From Salvia splendens (lineage: Eukaryota > Streptophyta > Magnoliopsida > Lamiales > Lamiaceae), in NCBI RefSeq assembly GCF_004379255.2, contig NC_056041.1, forward strand, positions 21,049,559-21,113,558: a stretch of 64,000 nt of DNA, written 5' to 3'. Under the pieces are notes generated by a model that saw nothing but the letters and a program-made list of their open reading frames with translations, was not told the origin of the DNA and made no database searches. Positions 25,876 through 38,252 of this stretch are shown here, piece by piece. Positions within the stretch are counted from its first letter, which is position 1. Each line of letters begins with the position of its first letter. The position numbers were made by a program, and so were the translations under genes.

Positions 25876-27965
25876 GGGCATCCGCAGTGGTGCAGATGTC
25901 CCGGCGGACATCTCCAAAATACCTCATGCCACTTCATACGGACTTTCCACTGCGGATGCCACGTCATACGGATATCTCACTGCACAGTGGCGGACATCCC
26001 GACGGACTTCATATATTAAAAAATCCACAAATTCACCAATTTAATAATTTACGGAAGTAAAATTTCGACACAAATATGAAGAAAATGAGAACATTTTATT
26101 AAAAAAAACATACTTAATTAAAAAAATACATAAAAAAATTATATAAATATAAAAAAACCGCCTTCTCACTCCTCGGATTCTCCGCCGCCGGTACCCTCGT
26201 CGTCGCCGCCGCCACCCCCCTCGCCGCCGCTAACCGACATCTCGTCGAACCCCAAATCGCACCGCATACTGTTTAGGAGGGGTTTAAGCTTCCGCTTGTA
26301 ATGGGGGTCGGTTGCTTGGCGCCATTCAACCATTGCACGTAACAAGGTTTCATGTGTCGCGATGCGGACGAATGAGGGGTTCTGGGGATCGTTTTGGGTG
26401 GGTACTGCAGATTGGGCCTTGGCGGATCCGCTGCCGCTTCCCCCCGGAGTCCCCGTCGCGGCCTTTTGCCCACCCGGGCGACGGCGGCGGTTCGACGATG
26501 TGGGTGTGGGGAACTCTGCCTCGGCGGGGGGAGCTCGTAGGAACCAGCACTGCTACTATACTCCCCGTATGCGCTAATCCTCATTCGCTTCGGCCAGCCA
26601 GATTCAACGCCCGCAGTGAACTTGGCCGAATCCTGCACCACGAGATAGACATCCCAATACTTGAATTCCTCGAACCCCTTTGAAGGATCGATGTACTGCT
26701 GGTGCGCGGCAAGCTTCACGTCCTCGGCGGACATGCCGCTGGACGCCATGCGGAGATAGTTCGTGTAAAGGCCGGCAAAGCAGCTGAGCTGCCTCCTCAG
26801 CTGCTCCCACTGTTTCCGGCATTGTTCGCCGTTGTGAGGCTTACCCCCTGCCGGTTTGAACTGGAGGTAGCTTTGGCTAATGCGGCACCACATCCTGTCG
26901 ATGTGCTGGTTCGCCCTGACGTATGGATCCTCCACTACACTGATCCACGCCTTCGCCAGCGCAATGCACTCCTCCATGCTCCAGATGGTCCTCTTGTTCC
27001 CGCTGGACCCCTCCCCCACCTCAGCGGCCCCCGATCCACCATCGTACACCGCCGCAGACGATGTAGTGTCCCGTCCCCTCCCCTTTCCCTTTCCCCTTCT
27101 CCCCATGGGCGTCGGCGCGTCGGTGGGAAAATTCCGGATCGGAGATAGTCCCAACTCCTCCAGCGAGAACGTGTCGAGGCCAGTGAACTGGGTCTCGACA
27201 GGAGTACTCGTCGGGTTGTCCGGCGACAGTAAATCCATGTAAGGCCGGTAGACGTTGTCCACCGGTGATTAGGGGACCCCCCTACCTACTCCCCCCCCCC
27301 CCCCCCCCCCGCACCCGCCGACGACCCTGCATCATCCCCGGCATCATCATATCGGGCATCTGGTCCATCATCCCCGACATTTCAAGCATCATACCCGGCA
27401 TTCCGGGCATCATACCTGGCATTTTGGGCATTCTGGAACTCCCCCGGGCATCTGGGACATTTGGCTCATCATCCCATACCACTGCGGGTACATGTTGTAG
27501 TACCCGGGCATCATCCCCGCCGGCATTTGAGGTTGGGGCTTCGCGGCAGATATCGGCGCCGTTCCGCCGACGGGAAAAAAAGGCGACGGTGAGTCGCTCG
27601 AAGCGGGGGAATCGCTATCGTGGTGCTCCATTGCTCTTCGAAAGAAAAGTGTGTTAGAGAGAGAGAAACTTGTTAAAACAAGTGGTGCGATTGAAATGAA
27701 GTGCAACGAGACGTATTTATAGAATTTTTTTTAAAATTAATGCAAAAATCGGGATTTTAAAAAAAAATTAATGCAAGAATCGGGAATTCCGCACCGACGT
27801 CCGTGGGAGTCAACGCAATGGTGGACGTCCCGACGGACGTCAGCAAAAAGGCGCGGACATGCGGTATCCGTATCGGACGTCCGTATCCGTTGAACAGTTG
27901 CACAATGGTGGACGTCGCGCACGCCGGTCTGACATCCGCGCGGAAGTCCACCATTGCTGATGCTC
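25876..27965 (-). mobile_element. PIF/Harbinger-type DNA transposon (2,090 bp) carrying only ORF1
   Basis: Ends GGGCATCCGCAGTGG and, inverted, GAGCATCAGCAATGG, flanked by TTA at 25873-25875 and 27966-27968, the standard 3-bp target duplication of this superfamily. The subterminal regions repeat GGACGTCCG/CGGACGTC-like inverted motifs. Coding capacity is limited to the Myb-like ORF1; there is no DDE transposase, so it must rely on a partner elsewhere. Confidence 0.88.
26166..27631 (-). pseudogene. Harbinger ORF1 (Myb/SANT-like DNA-binding protein), interrupted in homopolymers
   Basis: Start at ATG 27631 (MEHHDSDSPASSDS); end at the TGA at 26166-26168. The N-terminal part is low complexity, Met/Pro/Gly-rich (many MPGMM repeats). 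The central trihelix/Myb-like domain runs from RTIWSMEECIALAKAW to the KGFEEFKYWDVYL region. The C-terminal part includes NPSFVRIATHET. The frame changes in the Met/Pro-rich part, near the (C)20 run at 27291-27310, and again in the C-run near 26528. Both main breaks lie in or near homopolymers, so sequencing error is possible. In Harbinger elements ORF1 binds DNA and helps import the transposase into the nucleus. Confidence 0.75.
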
Positions 27966-28303
27966 TTAGTTTAATCTCCAATGAGGGCGTATACTGTAGA
28001 GAAAGCTGTAGGCTGTATCTCCACATTTTCTCGAAGCTCGAAGCCTCATGTCCAAACTTCTTCAAGAAAACCCGATCAAGGTGATAAACTCAACCCTAAA
28101 AAAAGGAACACTCATTTTCTTTAATTCTTTAATTTGTTACAAATTTTGCAAAAAAATAATAAATTCATGAGCAGATTACAGATTATCAGAGCACCCCATT
28201 TGTTGCGTTGGATTTCTTTACCAAGCGCTAATAGCAATTTTAAATCATCAAAATCCAATTTTTATGGTTATGGCTCGCATCATCTTGTACAAAAGGTTAG
28301 GTT

Positions 28304-28312
28304 GTATACAAC
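28304..28312. repeat. Left 9-bp target-site duplication of the MULE
   Basis: GTATACAAC, repeated exactly at 36640-36648. A duplication of 9 bp is characteristic of Mutator-like insertion. Confidence 0.93.
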
Positions 28313-28384
28313 GGGAAAATCGGGTTTATAGGGCACTTGGCCTTTAAAATAACGAAAATGTACCCATTTTGTTATCTATTCCAT

Positions 28385-28690
28385 ATATGGGAAAAACGCC
28401 AATGACATTGGCGTGTCTATAAGTAAAAACGCCAACACAGTTGGCGTTTTATAGTGTCATCGTATTTGAGGCGTATTTTCTACAAATACAGTTATATTAA
28501 AACGCCTTTGGGGTTGGCGTGTTTATTATAGTAGAAACGCCGAAGGGATCGGCGTGTTTATTAAACGACGCCAACAAGGACGGCGTTTACAATTAAAATA
28601 CGCCAACACGAGTGGCGTTTTACAATCAAAAGACGCCAACACAAGTGGCGTTTTACAGTTAAATACGCCAACACGAGTGGCATGTTTTCA
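28385..28690. repeat. Left subterminal array of GCCAA/TTGGC palindromes
   Basis: Repeated short hairpin-forming units such as AAAACGCCAACACAGTTGGC and ACGCCAACACGAGTGGCGTT, with loops of about 4-7 bases, spaced roughly every 35-45 bp. The same unit is found inside the right TIR and between the two genes. Confidence 0.88.
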
Positions 28691-28699
28691 CAGACCTGA

Positions 28700-29366
28700 T
28701 ATAACAGCCTCACCTTCCCCAAATCGCGAAAAACACACCACACACTTCGCGAAAAACACAAAACAGCGCCTCTTGTTGGGAATTCGCCCTCCTCTACGTG
28801 ATTTCGCCCTCCATTCATCAATCGGTGCTATTCTTCCCCAAATTCATATATTTTCTTCGGTTAGTATGCTTATCTTTTACATTATTAGAGTAATTGTTGG
28901 ATAGTTAGCTAGGGTTTGTAATGGGTTGTGAATTGAGTTGAAATATTGTGAATTTTGGATTGTTTGAATGCCGTTGTTGTTGATTATTATGTTGCATTGT
29001 TTGGGTTTAAGTGAATTTGTATATAATTTTGATTATAAACCTAAACCCTAGGTTGTTATAACATAAAAATTGGGCAAATTGATTTGGTTTATGTGGGTTT
29101 TTGTTGATGTATAGTGTTTAGTTTGAATTGTTACTTTTGTGTATATTGTTAGGTTGAAATTGAAATTGAAATTGTTAATTGAAATTGTTAATTGAAATTG
29201 AAATTGAAATTGTTAGGTTGGTGTAGGTGAATTGTGAATTGTGAATTGTGAATTGTGAATTGTGTAGGTGAATTGTGAATTGTGTTATGCTTTTGAATGT
29301 GCAATGTTGTGTAGGTGAATTTGTGTATTGTTTAATTTGGGTTGAGGACTAATGTGTAGGTAAATT
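28700..29366 (+). promoter_or_regulatory. Presumed promoter and leader of the PMD gene
   Basis: Follows the palindrome array. Contains a candidate leader (CTTCCCCAAATCGCG and following), a likely intron, and a low-complexity stretch of GAAATT and GAATTGT repeats (29150-29290) shortly before the ATG at 29367. Confidence 0.35.
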
Positions 29367-31481
29367 ATGGCATCATCTTCAACTTCTCGTCGTCGGCTTG
29401 CATGTGGTCCTGCGGATCCTTCTGTATTGTATTTTCAGAGACAACACGTCTATAATAGCATATGGGCAGGAGTTCCATCCGAAGACGTACGCTGCTGACG
29501 ATATGAACGAATAATTTGGAAGGTTCCCATACATCCCCGTGTTTTGACAATAGTGGACCAGATGGGGTTCGACGGTATATTGAGGTGTGGTCAACCAAAG
29601 GACATTGACCACCATCTTATCACCGCTTTGATTGAACGTTGGAGGCCAGAGACTCACACGTTTCACTTTCCAGTCGGTGAAGCGACTGTGACATTGGAAG
29701 ACGTGGAGGTCTTATGGGGCCTCAAAGTTGATGGAGAGGCTGTGACGGGTTACCTCCCCCCGACGGATGTGGGATATTGGAAGGACAGGTGTCTGGATTT
29801 TCTAGGATTCATACATGACGCATCTGAGTTGAAAGAAATGGCTTTTAAGCAGACAAGCTTATCGCGTCAATTGAGGATTGAGCTGACTGATGACCACGAG
29901 CACTACATATATGCTCAGCGGGGTCGTATCTATTGTCTGCTATTACTTGGAGGTCTGATGATTCCAAACGCCTCCGGGAATAAAATTCCGTTCTTCTACC
30001 TGTAATTTTTCATGGATGTAGAACGGTGTTCTACTTATAGTTGGGGTGGTGCGACGCTTGTTTGCTTGTACCACAATTTGTGTGAAGCTGTCGTTGCTAA
30101 GATGACCGATGTCGGGGGAGCTTTAACTTTGTTACAGCTGTGGGCTTGGGAGAGAATCCCAAATATTAGACCGATGATGCTAGATCCCGTGCATACAGAC
30201 TATCTACCATGTGCAAGCGCGTAAGTTATTCACTAATTCATTTTTTAAGCTTAATGTTCATCAATTTCGTGTTATTCGCTCATAATTTAAATTTTTTAGA
30301 TGGAATGGTCCGGCGTCTTATGTAAAAGCACCCAGGCATTGTATTGAAAATTTCCGAGATCAGTTCTCCATGATGCATGCCAACCAGGTACTTCATATAC
30401 CTATAAATTGTTTTTTGTTTGTTGTTTTTTATTGAAATTATTGTGAATAAATTTGTGTCACATGTAGTTTATTTGGAGGTCTTATCTCCATCGGGAGTTG
30501 CCGCAATGTTGTGATGCCGCGTCCTATATGGATGTAGATAACAACGCTTATTTGCTGGAATCTGGCTGAGCCACACCTGCCTCAACGAGTGTTGCGCCAA
30601 TTTGGGATTGTCCAACCGTATATCCCGAACCTCCCCCAATTCCACGGTACTGATTTTGCGAAACAGGATTGCCGTGGAAAATCTGGTCGGAATTGGGTTG
30701 AATGGCACGCCCATTATATACAGGAGTGGGACAATAGACACTTCTTGGTGTGGACTGATCTGGAGGACAGTGATGAGCCTGTTGCAACCGAAGAGTATAT
30801 GAATTGGTTTCGCCAAATAACTGTGGTTTATTTAACCAAACCTGGCGTGCATGCTGAAAAAGGCTTCCATGAAACGGCATCTTCTCATAACTTCGTGGTA
30901 AATTACAAAAACTTTTAATTATTTAAAGCCATATTATGATATGTAATTAACTTTGAAAATTGTAGGTGGAGACGCTTCATAATATACGCCACTTTCTAAG
31001 TGGCCAAGATATGACAGAACATCCGGCTTTGGAAACCATTTCGAGGATGGTTCAAGACGGACTGCAGATATCCGGGGAGGCTGAGCTGATGGACTACCGT
31101 CCTTCCCAGCGCTCTGCAATGGACGTGGACGTACCCGTTAGGCAAAAGGGAAAACGACGAACCAAGAAGAAAACTGCCTGCGGAGAGTCGTCATCTCAGT
31201 TCGTACACCACTCCGATGATGATTTTGTGGAACCACCTCCACCTAGATCTGCAGTTCGAGGCCGTCATTCTGTCAGCCACACCGGTGGTACCGGAGAAGA
31301 TATTGGCCTCAGTGATGTCCCCGCTTCTCCATCGCAGTTGTCTGGGCGAGATGATTTATTTGGGGTGGATCTAGAGAACGCTGTTGTTCAAGATACTCCT
31401 CCCTCTAGGATCCCTAGATCTACATCCAGAATTGGGAAGGGGATACGAGGCCTATTTATGCGGAAACAGCAAGACGATTAA
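29367..31481 (+). pseudogene. Plant mobile domain (PMD, aminotransferase-like) protein gene of the MULE
   Basis: Four likely exons: 29367-30220, about 30300-30388, about 30469-30900 and about 30967-31481. The PMD signature is clear: HPRVLTIVDQMGF, LITALIERWRPETHTFHFP, GEATVTLEDVEVLWGL and, later, LRQFGIVQPYIP. Lesions: TGA near 29498 (RC-stop-RYER, where CGA Arg fits), TAA at about 30003 (FFYL-stop-FFMDV) and a frameshift near 30545. The last exon has a basic patch (KGKRRTKKK) and a tail, RSAVRGRHSVSHTGGTGEDI and on to the stop at 31481, that is homologous to the tail of the transposase gene on the opposite strand. PMD proteins are found in MULEs and in host MAIN/MAIL silencing factors; their role in transposition is not known to me. 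Confidence 0.85.
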
Positions 31482-33121
31482 ACTAATTTGAACTCTTTAT
31501 ATTAGTAATTTGATACATCATCTTGATATTGATGTTTTTTCATTGATTTGAACTCTTTAATTTAGTAATTTGATAAATCCTCTTTTTATACGTTTTCATA
31601 TTGATAATTTGATAAAATATGATAAATTGTTTTGGATATATGATATTAGTACTCCCTAATTAAAATGAAAAAGAGACAATAAAGAGATAGAGGAAAGCAC
31701 GTTTTCTTTGACATTCTGAACAAACTTTCCTGTCAAGTTGGCGTGTCTTAGTTTTTCTGAAAAACGCCATTCGCAATGGCGTTTCTAAGTTAGAACAAAA
31801 TTTGGTCAATTTTTTCCATGCAGGAATCGGACATTCTGAACAAACTTGCCAGTCAAGTTGGAGTGTCTTAGTTTTTCTCAAAAACGCCATTCGCAATGGC
31901 GTTTCTAAGTTAGAACAAAATTTGGTCAATTTTTTCCACGCAGGAATCTGACATTCTGAACAAACTCGCCAGCCAAGTTGGCGTTTCTTATAAAACGCCA
32001 ACATAGTTGGCGTTTTTCTAAAAAACGCCATTTGCAATGGCGTTTCTAAGTTAGAACAAAATTTGGTCAATTTTTTCCACGCAGGAATCGGACATTCTGA
32101 ACAAACTCGCCAGTCAAGTTGGCGTGTCTTAGTTTTTCTCAAAAACGCCATTCGCAATGGCGTTTCTAAGTTAGAACAAAATTTGGTCAATTTTTTCCAT
32201 GCAGGAATCGGACATTCTAAACAAACTCGCCAGTCAAGTTGGCGTTTCTTATAAAACGCCAACATATTCTAAAAAACGCCATTTGCAATGACGTTTCTAA
32301 GTTAGAACAAAATTTGGTCAATTTTTTCCACGCAGGAATCGGACATTCTGAACAAACTCGCCAGTCAAGTTGGCGTTTCTTATAAAACGCCAACATAGTT
32401 GGCGTTTTTCTAAAAAACGCCATTTGCAATGGCGTTTCTAAGTTAGAACAAAATTTGGTCAATTTTTTCCACGCAGGAATCGGACATTCTGAACAAACTC
32501 GCCATCCCCATTGACGTGTTTTTATCAAAAAACGCCAATCCATTTGGCGTGTTATATTAAAAAACGCCAATCCATTTGGTGTGTTATATTAAAAAACGCG
32601 AATCCAGTTGGCGTTTTTAATGAAAAACGCAAATAAAGTTGGTGTGTTTTAATAAAAAATCAACTAGGATTATAAACAATACAATGTTGAATTCAATAAA
32701 CAACTAGGATTATAAACAAAACAATGTTCAATTCAACTAAATAGTTGTTAAACGTTCAATTGTCTCTCCTTTTCCGCGTAAAAAAGCTACGGATACCCTT
32801 CCCGATTCTGGCGGTTGAGAGTCTAGACGGAGGAGTATCTTGCATAACGACATTCTCTAAATCAACCCCGAAAAAATCGTCTCGCACAGAAGACCGAGGT
32901 GGAGAATGTGGGACATCACTGAGACCGATGTCTTCGCCTGTACCACCAGTGTGGCTGACAGAATGACGACCATGAACTGCAGATCTTGGTGGAGGTGGAG
33001 GCATAAAATCGTGATCGCCAACATCAGTGTGGCTGACAGAATGACGACCTCGAAATGCAGATCTTGGTGGAGGTGGAGGCATAAAATCGTCAGCCGCCTC
33101 ATCTACCAACTGAGTATCCAT
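31201..33121. repeat. Inverted duplication: homologous 3' coding ends of the PMD and transposase genes
   Basis: 31201-31481 (+) and 33121-32756 (-) encode alignable tails: PPPPRSAVRGRHSVSHTGGT against PPPPRSAVHGRHSVSHTGGT, GEDIGLSDVP in both, GVDLENAVVQDTPPSR against GVDLENVVMQDTPPSR, and IGKGIRGLF against IGKGIRSFF. The DNA also aligns, so this is duplication and not convergence. The transposase copy has an extra internal repeat of the DDFMPPPPPRSAF/RGRHSVSHT block. Confidence 0.85.
31660..32640. repeat. Tandem repeat and palindrome array between the two converging MULE genes
   Basis: Units of about 121 and 143 bp repeat the segment GGTCAATTTTTTCCACGCAG, then CGGACATTCTGAACAAACTC and AAACGCCATTCGCAATGGCG. 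Longer units carry one extra palindrome (AAACGCCAACATAGTTGGCG). The right part (32500-32640) becomes plain AACGCCAATCCATTTGGCGT palindromes. Same GCCAA/TTGGC core as at both ends of the element. It sits where both transcripts should terminate. Confidence 0.9.
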
Positions 33122-35704
33122 CCTTGCAAGAGCATTCGGGCAGTTGCGCCTGTCGTGACCTGGTTGACGGCAATGTTTACATCAGCGTCGGGCTCGTGGC
33201 TAGTCAGCTTCAGGGACATCCATCTGATTAGGAATCCTAGTAGTACGGTATCGACCACGACTTTTAGGCATTAACTGAGCTCGTGAACATTGCAAAGTCC
33301 ATTCAGGCACGGCCCAATAATCTTGGTGTCTGAGTGGATTGAACACCGTAGAATATTGGTGTACCCAAACACTTGTGCGGTATACGGGATCAACAAGCGA
33401 CAGCATGTTGTCGTTTCTAAACCGCGCAACTGCCGCTGCATGTGAACATGGAAGTCTCCACATCTGCCACTTTTGACATTTGCACTTCGACTCCAAGTAC
33501 TTTACCTTCCACTTGTTATCACCCTTTCCACCAAGTCGACTTTTTGTTCGAACCAAATAAATCCCTGCAATTGTGTTTGATGCTCTGACATTATGTAACT
33601 GACCTTTTACATCATGTTTGCACACTTTCTCATGCGCCCACGGGGTAAGTGGCGTGACACACTGTGTTGCTGCAATTGACCGCTCATTGAACCATTCTAC
33701 AGTCCTCCAGAATATCATGTCAATGCAAACTTTGATTGGGAGTTGTCTTGCGCCTCTCAACACATTGTTGTAAGATTCCACAATATTAGTGGACATCTCA
33801 CCCCATCTTTTGTGTTTGTCGTACGCCAAATTCCATTTTTCTAACTCCACGGCATCAAGATACTGCAAATCCTCGTTGTTGACGTTTCGAAGTAAACGAT
33901 GTCTGATCTTAAACTTGCGCTTCTTGGTAGCAATACCAATTTTCCAAACAAGTCTTTTGACCATGATACCTTTGTGATTCTGCAAAACATTCTTTCTGAC
34001 ATGTACCAAGCAAAATCTGTGATGACCCACATTGGGTTCTTCTTTCCATATGGGAGAATTCATTGCATCTATGATTCCCACATGCCTATCAGATATGATA
34101 CATATTTCATGCTTTGCTACATGAAGTCTAATGCGTTCCATAAACCAATTCCAACTTTCTTTGGTTTCCTCATCAGCAATGACATATGCAACAGGCAAAC
34201 ATTTTTTAGTAGCATCAAATCCAACGGCAATAAGAATTTTACCTCGACATCGTCCACATAGATGAGTTCCATCAACCGTTAAAACTGGTTTGCATAGTTG
34301 AAAAGCCTCCACAGCTGGTCCAAAAGCCCAGAATACGTACTTGAATACGTTGTTCATACCATTGCTTAATATGTCATCGTGCAACCATTCCACAATTGTG
34401 CCAGAATTTTGTCTTTGCATTTCATTCAAATAAGCTGGTAAAACTTTGAACGACCACTCCCATCCACCGTATACAAGCTCAATCGTTGTCCTCCGAGCAT
34501 ACCATGCTTTCTTGTAACTAACTTTGACATGAAATCTATTTTCAATATCCGCCACAATTGTTTTTACCTTGTAGCAAGGATCGTTTTCTATCTGATGTCG
34601 AACACTCAATGCTATCATACCCGACGAAAGATTAACGTGCCCATTATAGTTACGATCCCCCATGCAAGTATGAGCAGTGCTAAACACTCTAATTTGCCAG
34701 TGTTCGTCATGCTTTCTCAGTGTTGCTCGGCACTCCCACATACATTTCGGTAATGAGGTATCCTTCGGATTTCCTTGTGGCCACTTACAAACTGCATGCC
34801 ATCTCTTTCCTTTACTTTCAACAACTGTATATTGTCGGATTTTTTCCAAATGCCAATGAGTCACAGCTGCCTTCAATTCCAACTTCGTTCTAAATTTAGT
34901 ATGCAAACCGACATTGCTAGGATCTTTTTCACTCCAATAATGCACACTGGGATCATCACGCTCAAAGTTTTTGGGATCAAAACTATCATATGGACCTGGT
35001 AAGGTGCGAAAATAGTTGATTCCACGCTGTGGGAACTGTGGAACTACTCTTCCTCCAACTGTCCTTCCACCAACTGATGTTTCTCCAACTGTTGTTTCTC
35101 CAAGTGGAATGGATGGTCTTGAAGCAACAAATTGTTCATCATCCGACGGATCACCATCTGAGTCTGTACTAACCGGGTCGGAATCTTCAGAATAATAAGG
35201 TGATTGTGGATCAAGAAAGTCAGCTTTATCAGGACCTATTATGTCCTCAACCACATCACAATTGTCACTTTCCCCTAAATGCACGCCTCCAGCTTCAAAA
35301 TCTTGTGTTGCAGCAAAATATAGTTCTTTGGCTCTCGTAGACGTACCAACATCATAACTTATGACATGATGACTATGATGTTGAGTAATTGCCGAATACT
35401 CAACATATAATTCAATTAGATCTCCAATAACCATACTCTTACTAAACATTAGTTGCATGCATACTTCTTCTAGTAGAATACCTACAAACGTTACTCCGGA
35501 TCCAAAGCATATAGTACGTTTCCATATTATTTGAATTTTGTTTTCATATATGCTTATCCCCATCCTTTCACAAATTTTTTCCACAAGCTCATCGTACGAA
35601 ATTGTTTCATCCAACATAATGAATCCTTTAGCAAAAGGAGGGTACGGAATAACTGCACCGGGAATTATCTTTCCACCCCAATATAAATTCGCACACCACG
35701 TCAT
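32756..35704 (-). pseudogene. MURA-type (MuDR) transposase of the MULE; two stops before a CCHC tail
   Basis: An open frame runs from ATG 35704 (MTWCANLYWGGKI) to a TAG at 33200, about 834 residues. It has an N-terminal PB1/MuDR-like region, an acidic linker with TTVGETSVGGRTVGG repeats, the MuDR DNA-binding-type region (FRTKLELKAAVTHW), the DDE core (LTVDGTHL, IISDRHVGI, and CLVH of the C-x2-H motif), and a SWIM zinc finger (CKCQKWQMWRLPCSHAA). The same frame continues after TAG and a nearby TGA into a CCHC knuckle (CKHCRQPGHDRRNC) and a proline-rich tail ending at 32756. The TGA probably replaces CGA. Catalytic parts look intact, so a protein ending at 33200 might be made, without knuckle and tail. 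A first exon further upstream is possible. Confidence 0.85.
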
Positions 35705-35839
35705 ACTATCTGCAATACTGTAAAACACAAATAAATATGTATTATTTTTACATTCATCATTATGTAGAGTGAGCCAAAAATTAGACAAAATATTTCTATT
35801 AAATACACTACAATATATATTATCATAACAATCCATTAA

Positions 35840-36080
35840 ATATTGGTAACAAAATTAGATATACTACAACATATAATAGCATAACAATTGGTCAAAATAT
35901 TTCTATTAAAATATATACTATCATAATAATCCATCAAAATATTAGTGTGCCCATAACAATTGGTCAAAATATTATATTAATTACACTACAATATATATTA
36001 TCACAACAATCCATCAAATATTGGAAGACTAATATTTGGAAGATTGAGTCTAAAATTTGATATACTAACCGATTAGAAGG
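35840..36080. repeat. Imperfect tandem repeats upstream of the transposase ORF
   Basis: About three copies of a unit containing ACACTACAATATATATTATC, ACAATCCATCAAATATTGG and ATTGGTCAAAATATT. Likely 5' intron or leader sequence of the transposase gene. Confidence 0.6.
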
Positions 36081-36261
36081 AATAATGTTTGGAAGAATGA
36101 GCAAAAATCGAAATCTCCACGCTCAAATCCACCACCGGTTCGACCCGAGCAAGGATTACCTTAAGGTTTTTCCGCCTTGGGAAGGGTTTTCGCGTTTTGG
36201 GGAGGGAAAGTATTTAGGGTTCGCCAAGTTGGGGGAGATCTGATTGGTATATATGGTTCAA

Positions 36262-36565
36262 CAGAAACACGCCGACCAGGGTGGCGTGTTTATGTTAAAA
36301 ACGCCGACCTCATTGGCGTTTATAGTTGAACACGCCAACTACATTGGCGTTTTTAAAATTGAACACGCTAACGCAGTTGGCGTTTTTTCTTGTAACACGC
36401 CACTTGAGTTGGCGTTTTTATCGTAGCTGTATTTTGGAGAAAATACAGCTAAAATACGACGCCATTATAAAACGCCAATGTTGTTGGCGTCTTAACTTAT
36501 TGAAACGCCAATGCGTTCGGCGTCTTTACTTAGAGAAATACCAATGCAGTTGGCGTTTTTCCCAT
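36262..36565. repeat. Right subterminal array of GCCAA/TTGGC palindromes
   Basis: Units such as AACACGCCAACTACATTGGC and AACGCCAATGTTGTTGGCGT lie just inside the right TIR, in mirror position to the left array at 28385-28690. Confidence 0.88.
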
Positions 36566-38252
36566 ATATAGAATAGATACTAAAATGGGTACATTTTCGT
36601 TATTTTAAAGGCCAAGTGCCCTATAAACCCGATTTTCCCGTATACAACAGAGAGCTCAATTGATTTGAAAAAAAAGTGTGGGTTTTGGTGGGAGTGGGAA
36701 AATGGGGCGTATAGTGAAAGCACAAGCACAATCTGCTTTGGTAGAGTACTTCCATTCAACTAGGAGTTTGAGGATCATGGATGCTGAAAATATGGGGAAA
36801 AATACCCTAGAGTTTTTCAATAGGTTGATGAAGAGAGTGGCTATAGATGATGATAGCAAGATTAAGCATTCCGTGATGCGTTTTTAGAGGTACCATCCAG
36901 TTAATGAGTTTGAGCCCTTCTTTGAGAGCATAGGATTGAATCGTTCCGAATACGTGGAGTATCTTCCTAGAAACTTGATGTTTTTGTGTGATGATGAGTT
37001 GTTGTTGGACAATTATTATGTTCTGTATAACTATGGCATTGAAAGGAATAGGATTGGGAAGATTTTCAGAGAGGCTAATGAGGTATTCCGGGGTGACTAC
37101 GGCTCTCTGCAGGCAAAGCTTCGATCTTTAGAGGATTTGGGGCTGAGACGGTCTCTCGTTGCCAAGATTGTTGCTGCGAGTCCTCGTCTTTTGAAGGTGG
37201 ATGTTGATGAATTTGTTGAGTTTCTGGAGATGTTAAAGATGGTGGGGATTGAATGCGAATGGCTTTCGGAGAATATATGCGAGGAGGATTCTTACAGCTG
37301 GAAATGCATGCTTCAGCTCATGTGCTTATTGTGCAAGTTGGGCTGGAGCGAGAAGCAAGTCGGGGAACTGATTAAGCAGCATCCCGATCTTCTGCTCGAG
37401 TGCTCTGGGCGCGTTACCTATGGCCTAATCGGGTTATTGTTAAAATTCGGAGCCACAAAGAGTGATCTACACACTCTTTTTCATCAGTTTCCTCAAATAC
37501 CAGTTTTGAAGTTTACTAAGAATTTACATACCTCCTACATGTTCCTCTCTGAAATAGACATGGCTGCCCGAGATATCGGTAAAATAGTCTGCTCGTACCC
37601 TGCACTTTTGGGTTCCATTGAATTAAAAAAAGTGAAAAGCATATTAAGCCTACTGTCCTGTGGCAAGAACAGGCTCTGTCAAATGGTCAACGATGATCCG
37701 TTCACAATGGAGGCATGGGTCCTTGGTAGGAGATTCGAACGACTAGAAACTCAAAAGAGGGCTGCTAAAAGTATGGCTTTGAAAACTGAGTTTCTGATAT
37801 GCCTAGGCTTCAAAAAGAATTCAGAGGACTTGGAAAAGAGTCTTAAAATGCTTCGGGGCAGAGGAGTTGAACTTCAAGAGAGGTTCAACTGTTTAATGAA
37901 GAATGGCCTGAGCCGCGAGGAGGCAATAAAGATGGTCAGAATATCTCCTCAAATCCTCAACCAGACTCGTGATGTTATTGAGACGAAGATTCGGCTTTTC
38001 TTTGAGGAGTTGGGCTACGGAGTGTCTGGTTTACTCACTCATCCCAAAATTTTATCCTACACAATTAAGAGGGTGAAGCTTAGGCTTTTAATGTACAGAT
38101 GGCTTAAAGGTCAAGGAGCAGTGCGTCCCGGTTTGTCCCTGAGCACGCTCTTGGCTACTACGGATGAAGAATTTTTCAGAGCTTATGTAGTTCCTCACGC
38201 TAGAGGGCTTGAATTTTGGATAAGTCTGAATAAAAAACATATCTTTAAATAA

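Follow-up and report, generated by a model that had tools for sequence, protein, structure and literature searches.

Why should two unrelated proteins, encoded by converging genes of one transposon, end in the same tail? This question is raised by a 64,000-nucleotide stretch of the Salvia splendens genome (NC_056041.1, positions 21,049,559 to 21,113,558; hereafter the window, whose numbering is used throughout), in which a single Mutator-like element (MULE) of 8327 bp (28313-36639) carries a gene for a plant mobile domain (PMD) protein on the forward strand and a gene for a MURA-type transposase on the reverse strand. A preliminary description of the sequence claimed that the C-terminal tails of the two proteins can be aligned, as can their DNA, and that, the proteins being otherwise unrelated, one gene had acquired the tail of the other by inverted duplication. 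Both claims hold, and sequence comparisons now point to the direction: MURA acquired its tail from PMD, once, and the tail is native to PMD.

The two tails share 75% identity over 88 residues (BLASTP with low-complexity filter and composition adjustment, E = 3e-44), which rules out similarity of low-complexity sequence only, and 77% identity over 270 nt of DNA (E = 2e-59); the pair is the longest inverted repeat listed for 28000-37000. In a protein search with candidates limited to about 540-1718 residues, the MURA tail matched two of 627 candidates, both of them Salvia splendens PMD proteins. Searches of the S. splendens genome (805.9 Mb) gave at least 150 scored matches among 727 candidates for the MURA tail and at least 150 among 832 for the PMD tail. 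By eye, 49 of the 150 listed MURA-tail matches lie in open frames of precisely 1078 residues, many with equal scores, which indicates recent amplification of the family. Near-identical copies in which the MURA frame is complete number in the dozens, L017-L022 among them, pointing to recent amplification of a tailed lineage.

Twenty-one stretches, namely L017-L036 (10 kb each) and the window, were chosen by tail matches and are thus not a census. Both tails are present in 17 of them, the MURA tail alone in L027 and the PMD tail alone in L033-L035; the MURA body is cut short in L033 and L035 and was not found in the 10-kb stretch of L034. Both genes of the window copy are broken. Both tails are present in relatives whose MURA frames are open. 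The preliminary description named as a refutation that related elements should lack the shared tail in all cases, and the outcome is mixed: most of these stretches have both tails, whereas the MURA of the sister PMD-carrying element L057, which has the same converging layout, is tailless (98.5% identity to protein P0005) and faces the end of a PMD of the P0049 type, of which the last 29 residues lie within the piece read. The shared tail is therefore a derived feature of one lineage, and the idea that tail sharing is a rule for PMD-carrying MULEs is unsupported. A genome search with the tail of the P0049-type PMD family (150 scored of 502 candidates) gave, among the matches listed, open frames of at most 283 residues, none of them a full MURA.

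Direction of the tail transfer

At both loci where the two genes were read after being fetched through their PMD tails (L015 and L016), a tailed PMD stands beside a MURA that, over the part read, is 90-92% identical to the tailed MURA of L017 and that ends directly past the zinc knuckle. A search of the same genome for the knuckle junction (40 scored of 316 candidates) led to 12 fetched places, 11 with enough sequence for a tree (L054 was omitted for short coverage). A stop lies just beyond the knuckle in 12 of 13 same-family MURAs, including L015 and L016, the exception being L056. In the MURA tree, all 23 tailed copies fall into a single clade (support 100/100), with tailless copies to either side of the midpoint root; when outside proteins are added, the tailed clade is supported at 87/87 and the deepest branchings are weak. 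The tail is absent from all 34 proteins matched by the MURA query, many of which end soon past the knuckle, but several are truncated models ending before the knuckle, so that absence of the tail in those says little. Proteins P0005 and P0008 contain GRHS by chance, distant from the protein end. Taken together, the tailless MURAs of the family, the more remote relatives and L057 argue that MURA gained the tail.

Traces of the transfer are found behind the tail. In tailed MURA genes the order is knuckle, PMD tail, PMD 3' untranslated region (UTR) and former MURA 3'UTR, and the PMD type here named IIa matches MURA across the tail plus about 95 nt of 3'UTR. Searches with the 3'UTRs of five tailless MURA loci recovered the tailless 3'UTR downstream of the insert in 17 of the 23 tailed copies (shuffled control, 0 of 460). 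The PMD 3'UTR piece is retained in 8 of the 23, and L025 and L005 show both pieces in order. In the plain reading, a single inverted duplication placed the tail codons of a type-II PMD gene, together with some 95 nt of its 3'UTR, in the 3' end of the facing MURA gene, after the zinc knuckle and before the former 3'UTR, thereby giving the transposase its tail.

The tail tree is consistent with this source. All 23 MURA tails lie on one side of a branch (100/97) and all 26 type I PMD tails are likewise separated (100/99), while MURA and type II (IIa and IIb) together split from type I at 100/99; many rows of this tree are identical and three PMD places were entered twice (L010/L033, L012/L034, L014/L035). 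MURA groups with IIa alone at 76/61, and a tree constrained to unite IIa and IIb was not rejected (p = 0.43). Because the tails cluster by gene and not by element, gene conversion between the PMD and MURA tails within an element was rejected.

The element and its genes

The inverted ends of the window element begin GGGAAAATCGGG, are about 137 nt long and are flanked by an exact 9-bp target duplication (Table 1). Perfect target duplications of 9-10 bp, differing in sequence, were found in eight of the nine elements whose ends were examined, indicating real insertions; the ninth, L017, has no target duplication and a doubled start of its terminal inverted repeat (TIR). Such duplications, long TIRs and a transposase with DDE residues, a SWIM finger and an IS256-like fold are those of a MULE; with a PMD protein encoded inside, the element is a PMD-carrying MULE, belonging to a large family in the Salvia genome.

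Table 1. Features of the window element (positions in the window).
Feature	Position	Strand	Remarks
Left target-site duplication, 9 bp	28304..28312	.	same sequence as right copy
Left TIR, begins GGGAAAATCGGG	28313..28449	+	88-89% to right arm
Left subterminal array, 4 palindromes	28397..28650	.	CGCCA-N7-TGGCG
PMD gene	29367..31481	+	proposed exons 29367-30220, 30300-30387, 30467-30896, 30966-31481; Pfam PF10536
PMD C-terminal tail	31215..31481	+	homology to MURA tail
Central array, 12 palindromes, flanked by the converging 3' ends	31765..32549	.	CGCCA-N7-TGGCG
MURA reading frame	32756..35854	-	Pfam MULE 3.8e-16, Transposase_mut, SWIM
MURA C-terminal tail, captured	32756..33121	-	first part duplicated in tandem
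Zinc knuckle CKHCRQPGHDRRNC	33140..33181	-	by eye; tailless relatives stop shortly after
SWIM zinc finger	33422..33505	-	residues 784-811, Pfam
MULE transposase domain	33989..34285	-	residues 524-622, Pfam
Right subterminal array, 3 palindromes	36333..36489	.	CGCCA-N7-TGGCG
Right TIR	36503..36639	-	partner of left arm
Right target-site duplication	36640..36648	.	matches left copy

Apart from its tail, MURA looks ordinary. Residues D559 and E663 are invariant and D498 is present in at least 90% of sequences; we take these three to be the catalytic DDE triad. By fold, MURA is most similar to the ISCth4 transposase (E = 1.6e-8), which is presumably akin to IS256, and comparison with solved structures by sequence gave no match. 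Residues 1-107 of the L017 MURA resemble a PB1 domain (E = 4e-3). The tandem duplication in the first part of the tail has more copies in the 1078-residue lineage, and the window MURA has two internal stops near 33182-33199.

The exon layout of the PMD gene was proposed by eye and with tblastn; PF10536 (plant mobile domain) was found on two of the exons (6.1e-29 and 2e-12), and the window copy is degenerate, with two stops and one frameshift. Some elements of the examined set have an open first PMD exon together with MURA frames of at least 995 residues. In the tree of PMD bodies, type II (95/97) and type I (98/96) each form a clade. The PMD and MURA halves of an element do not always share a history: between L024 and L026 the synonymous divergence (Ks) of MURA is 0.02, yet that of the PMD bodies is 0.71 (exon 1) and 0.58 (exon 3), and identity, 97.9% across the 3.7 kb of the MURA side, is 76% across the 3.3 kb of the PMD side, the breakpoint lying directly beyond the MURA stop. 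PMD halves have thus been exchanged between elements whose MURA halves are nearly identical; the PMD tail keeps to its own PMD body.

A rigid 17-bp palindrome, CGCCA-N7-TGGCG, forms arrays only in the non-coding zones of the element, against a chance expectation of 0.05 palindromes for the whole window. A longer form occurs at 574 places in the genome, and no palindrome was found in the 3.5 kb of sequence from the sister element L057. Such family-specific motif arrays in non-coding regions are also characteristic of VANDAL elements, which encode VANC proteins that bind the motif and remove methylation. VANDALs are not known to have TIRs, and the window element was not filed among them because TIRs are present.

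Two further reading frames flank the element. An mTERF-family frame (36888-38252, forward strand; PF02536, 4e-34) begins 240 bp after the end of the right target duplication, with a possible start codon at 36702, 54 bp beyond the duplication. A Myb/SANT-like frame (26273-27268, reverse strand), scoring under the Pfam cut-off, is possibly the second gene of a Harbinger-type element.

Retention of both tails and candidate roles

Both tails have been maintained as protein sequence since the duplication. Within 13 elements, comparison of PMD tail and MURA tail gives Ks of 0.47-0.91, nonsynonymous divergence (Ka) of 0.09-0.17 and Ka/Ks of 0.17-0.24. These are seven distinct values, as L017-L022 and L029 share one; L024, L027 (without a PMD tail), L031 and L032 are excluded. 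Purifying selection tested on seven of these comparisons gave p from 4.5e-9 to 1.8e-6. By our own estimate, a ratio of about 0.6 would be expected if one tail had drifted freely along a branch of equal length, and the observed ratios therefore indicate that both tails are held. At least 90% of sequences in both sets have the same residue in 40 of 88 tail columns. Predicted local distance difference test (pLDDT) scores are below 50 for MURA residues 881-1022 (except residue 975) and PMD residues 443-565, suggesting that both tails are probably disordered. DNA binding by the tail itself seems less likely, because the tails are predicted to be disordered and the PMD core has a relative with a DNA-binding fold. 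The preliminary description had proposed that a shared tail could let both proteins bind one partner or DNA site, as parts of a two-component transposition system. Purifying selection on both tails fits a shared role and names no partner; the retention of both copies suggests that PMD and MURA must meet the same partner.

The predicted model of PMD has the VANC fold. By sequence, a PMD profile gave only three matches to solved structures, all with E of 0.9 or worse. VANC belongs to the sequence family DUF1985, which scores 20.7 bits against PMD protein P0001 (cut-off 35.1) and reaches E of 0.01 in 6 of 27 PMD proteins. Direct support is confined to the capture and the selection; beyond these, we infer DNA binding by PMD, a partner of the tail and the resulting effect as follows. 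PMD would be a site-specific DNA-binding factor with a VANC-like fold, bound to the palindromes arrayed at either end and in the centre of the element, where it may counter silencing or organise and assemble the element. With less confidence, the tail may be a docking segment for a partner from the host or the element; least confidently, MURA, owning the tail, might be drawn to the partner or place of PMD and so be coupled to a protected or assembled element. Taken whole, from capture and retention to these roles, this explanation is in our judgment somewhat better than an even bet.

Other explanations differ in what they take the tail to do, or in where it came from. The tail might merely aid nuclear import or solubility through its basic end (RKRRD), so that MURA is imported or folds better irrespective of what PMD does; both proteins do have the basic end and are predicted to be disordered there, in agreement with this, but conservation extends over the whole tail, including GRHS.SHTGGTG and TPPSR, and it is the basic end that varies, which makes this account rather unlikely. 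The gain might instead lie in the RNA, the inverted copy having supplied a new 3'UTR or changed the overlap of converging transcripts, with the protein tail a passenger. The genes do converge and PMD 3'UTR came with the insert; however, that piece is recognisable in a minority of copies, the codons are under purifying selection, and an inverted copy risks silencing through a hairpin, as with maize Mu killer (PMC3440606), and we regard this possibility as improbable. Least probable is that tails were ancestral in both genes and lost from the tailless MURAs. The tail tree, being unrooted, would by itself allow this, and outside proteins give a weak root, but tailless MURAs are the more diverse and related MURAs have no tail. 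Tailed copies also retain the tailless 3'UTR beyond the insert, and the insert has a piece of 3'UTR in common with PMD type IIa.

The role of PMD has its own alternative. In a wider proposal, which we advance tentatively, PMD is a palindrome-specific anti-silencing or assembly factor of VANC-type fold, the captured tail docks both proteins to one complex, and the host proteins MAIN and MAIL1 share DNA-binding ancestry with anti-silencers. Conversely, PMD might be no DNA-binding anti-silencer, and might mimic MAIN/MAIL1 and titrate their complex (such as PP7L), its VANC-like fold reflecting distant ancestry. The PMD-C proteins MAIN and MAIL1 do interact with PP7L (PMC7156037), and the use of captured PMDs by MULEs for anti-silencing was raised, as speculation only, by Ikeda et al. 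(PMC5418596). Mimicry leaves the palindrome arrays, which are arranged like VANC targets, unexplained, and we consider it doubtful, a step below the wider proposal.

Related systems and implications

PMD-carrying MULEs of rice, other grasses and Amborella likewise combine a MULE transposase and PMD in one element, and are described as encoding PMD-transposase fusion proteins (Ikeda et al., 2017, PMC5418596); the window element has two converging genes, and its MURA ends in a duplicate of the PMD tail. Annotated proteins with PMD and MULE domains from Zingiber, Centaurea and Heliosperma (P0024, P0031, P0033-P0035) are either joined gene models or products of PMD-carrying MULEs in plants other than grasses and Amborella. 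Maize MuDR also encodes a transposase and a helper in opposite directions (mudrA and mudrB; PMC9168764), has TIRs of about 200 bp and requires the helper for integration (PMC8224964); tail sharing is unmentioned in the available descriptions of MuDR, which the window element resembles in layout. Barley Abermu is another MULE in which an extra gene runs opposite to the first; that gene shares no identity with mudrB (PMC9168764).

VANDAL21 also encodes a second protein, VANC21, with family-specific short motifs repeated in non-coding parts; its motif is the 9-base YAGTATTAY, whereas that of the window family is a 17-bp palindrome (Hosaka et al., 2017, PMC5735166). The fold of VANC21 is akin to the predicted PMD model, although VANC is a Pfam family other than that of PMD. 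No tail capture is known to us in VANDAL21/VANC21, and we know of no transposase that acquired its helper's tail by such a capture. Searches of the open-licence literature likewise found no precedent for a transposase gaining a helper's tail, no paper containing the terms 'plant mobile domain' and 'VANC' together (PMC6419827 mentions the two topics separately) and none joining Salvia splendens with 'transposable elements' and 'Mutator'. As far as we know and within these searches, a PMD-carrying MULE whose transposase captured the tail of its accessory protein is new.

The takeover and retention of the tail are a natural experiment that ties PMD to the transposase. As tailed and tailless MURA states coexist in one genome, the effect of the tail is directly testable, and the VANC-like fold together with the palindrome arrays names a candidate DNA site for PMD. 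If the proposed relationship is true, PMD-type silencing proteins of the host would be linked to anti-silencing proteins of transposons.
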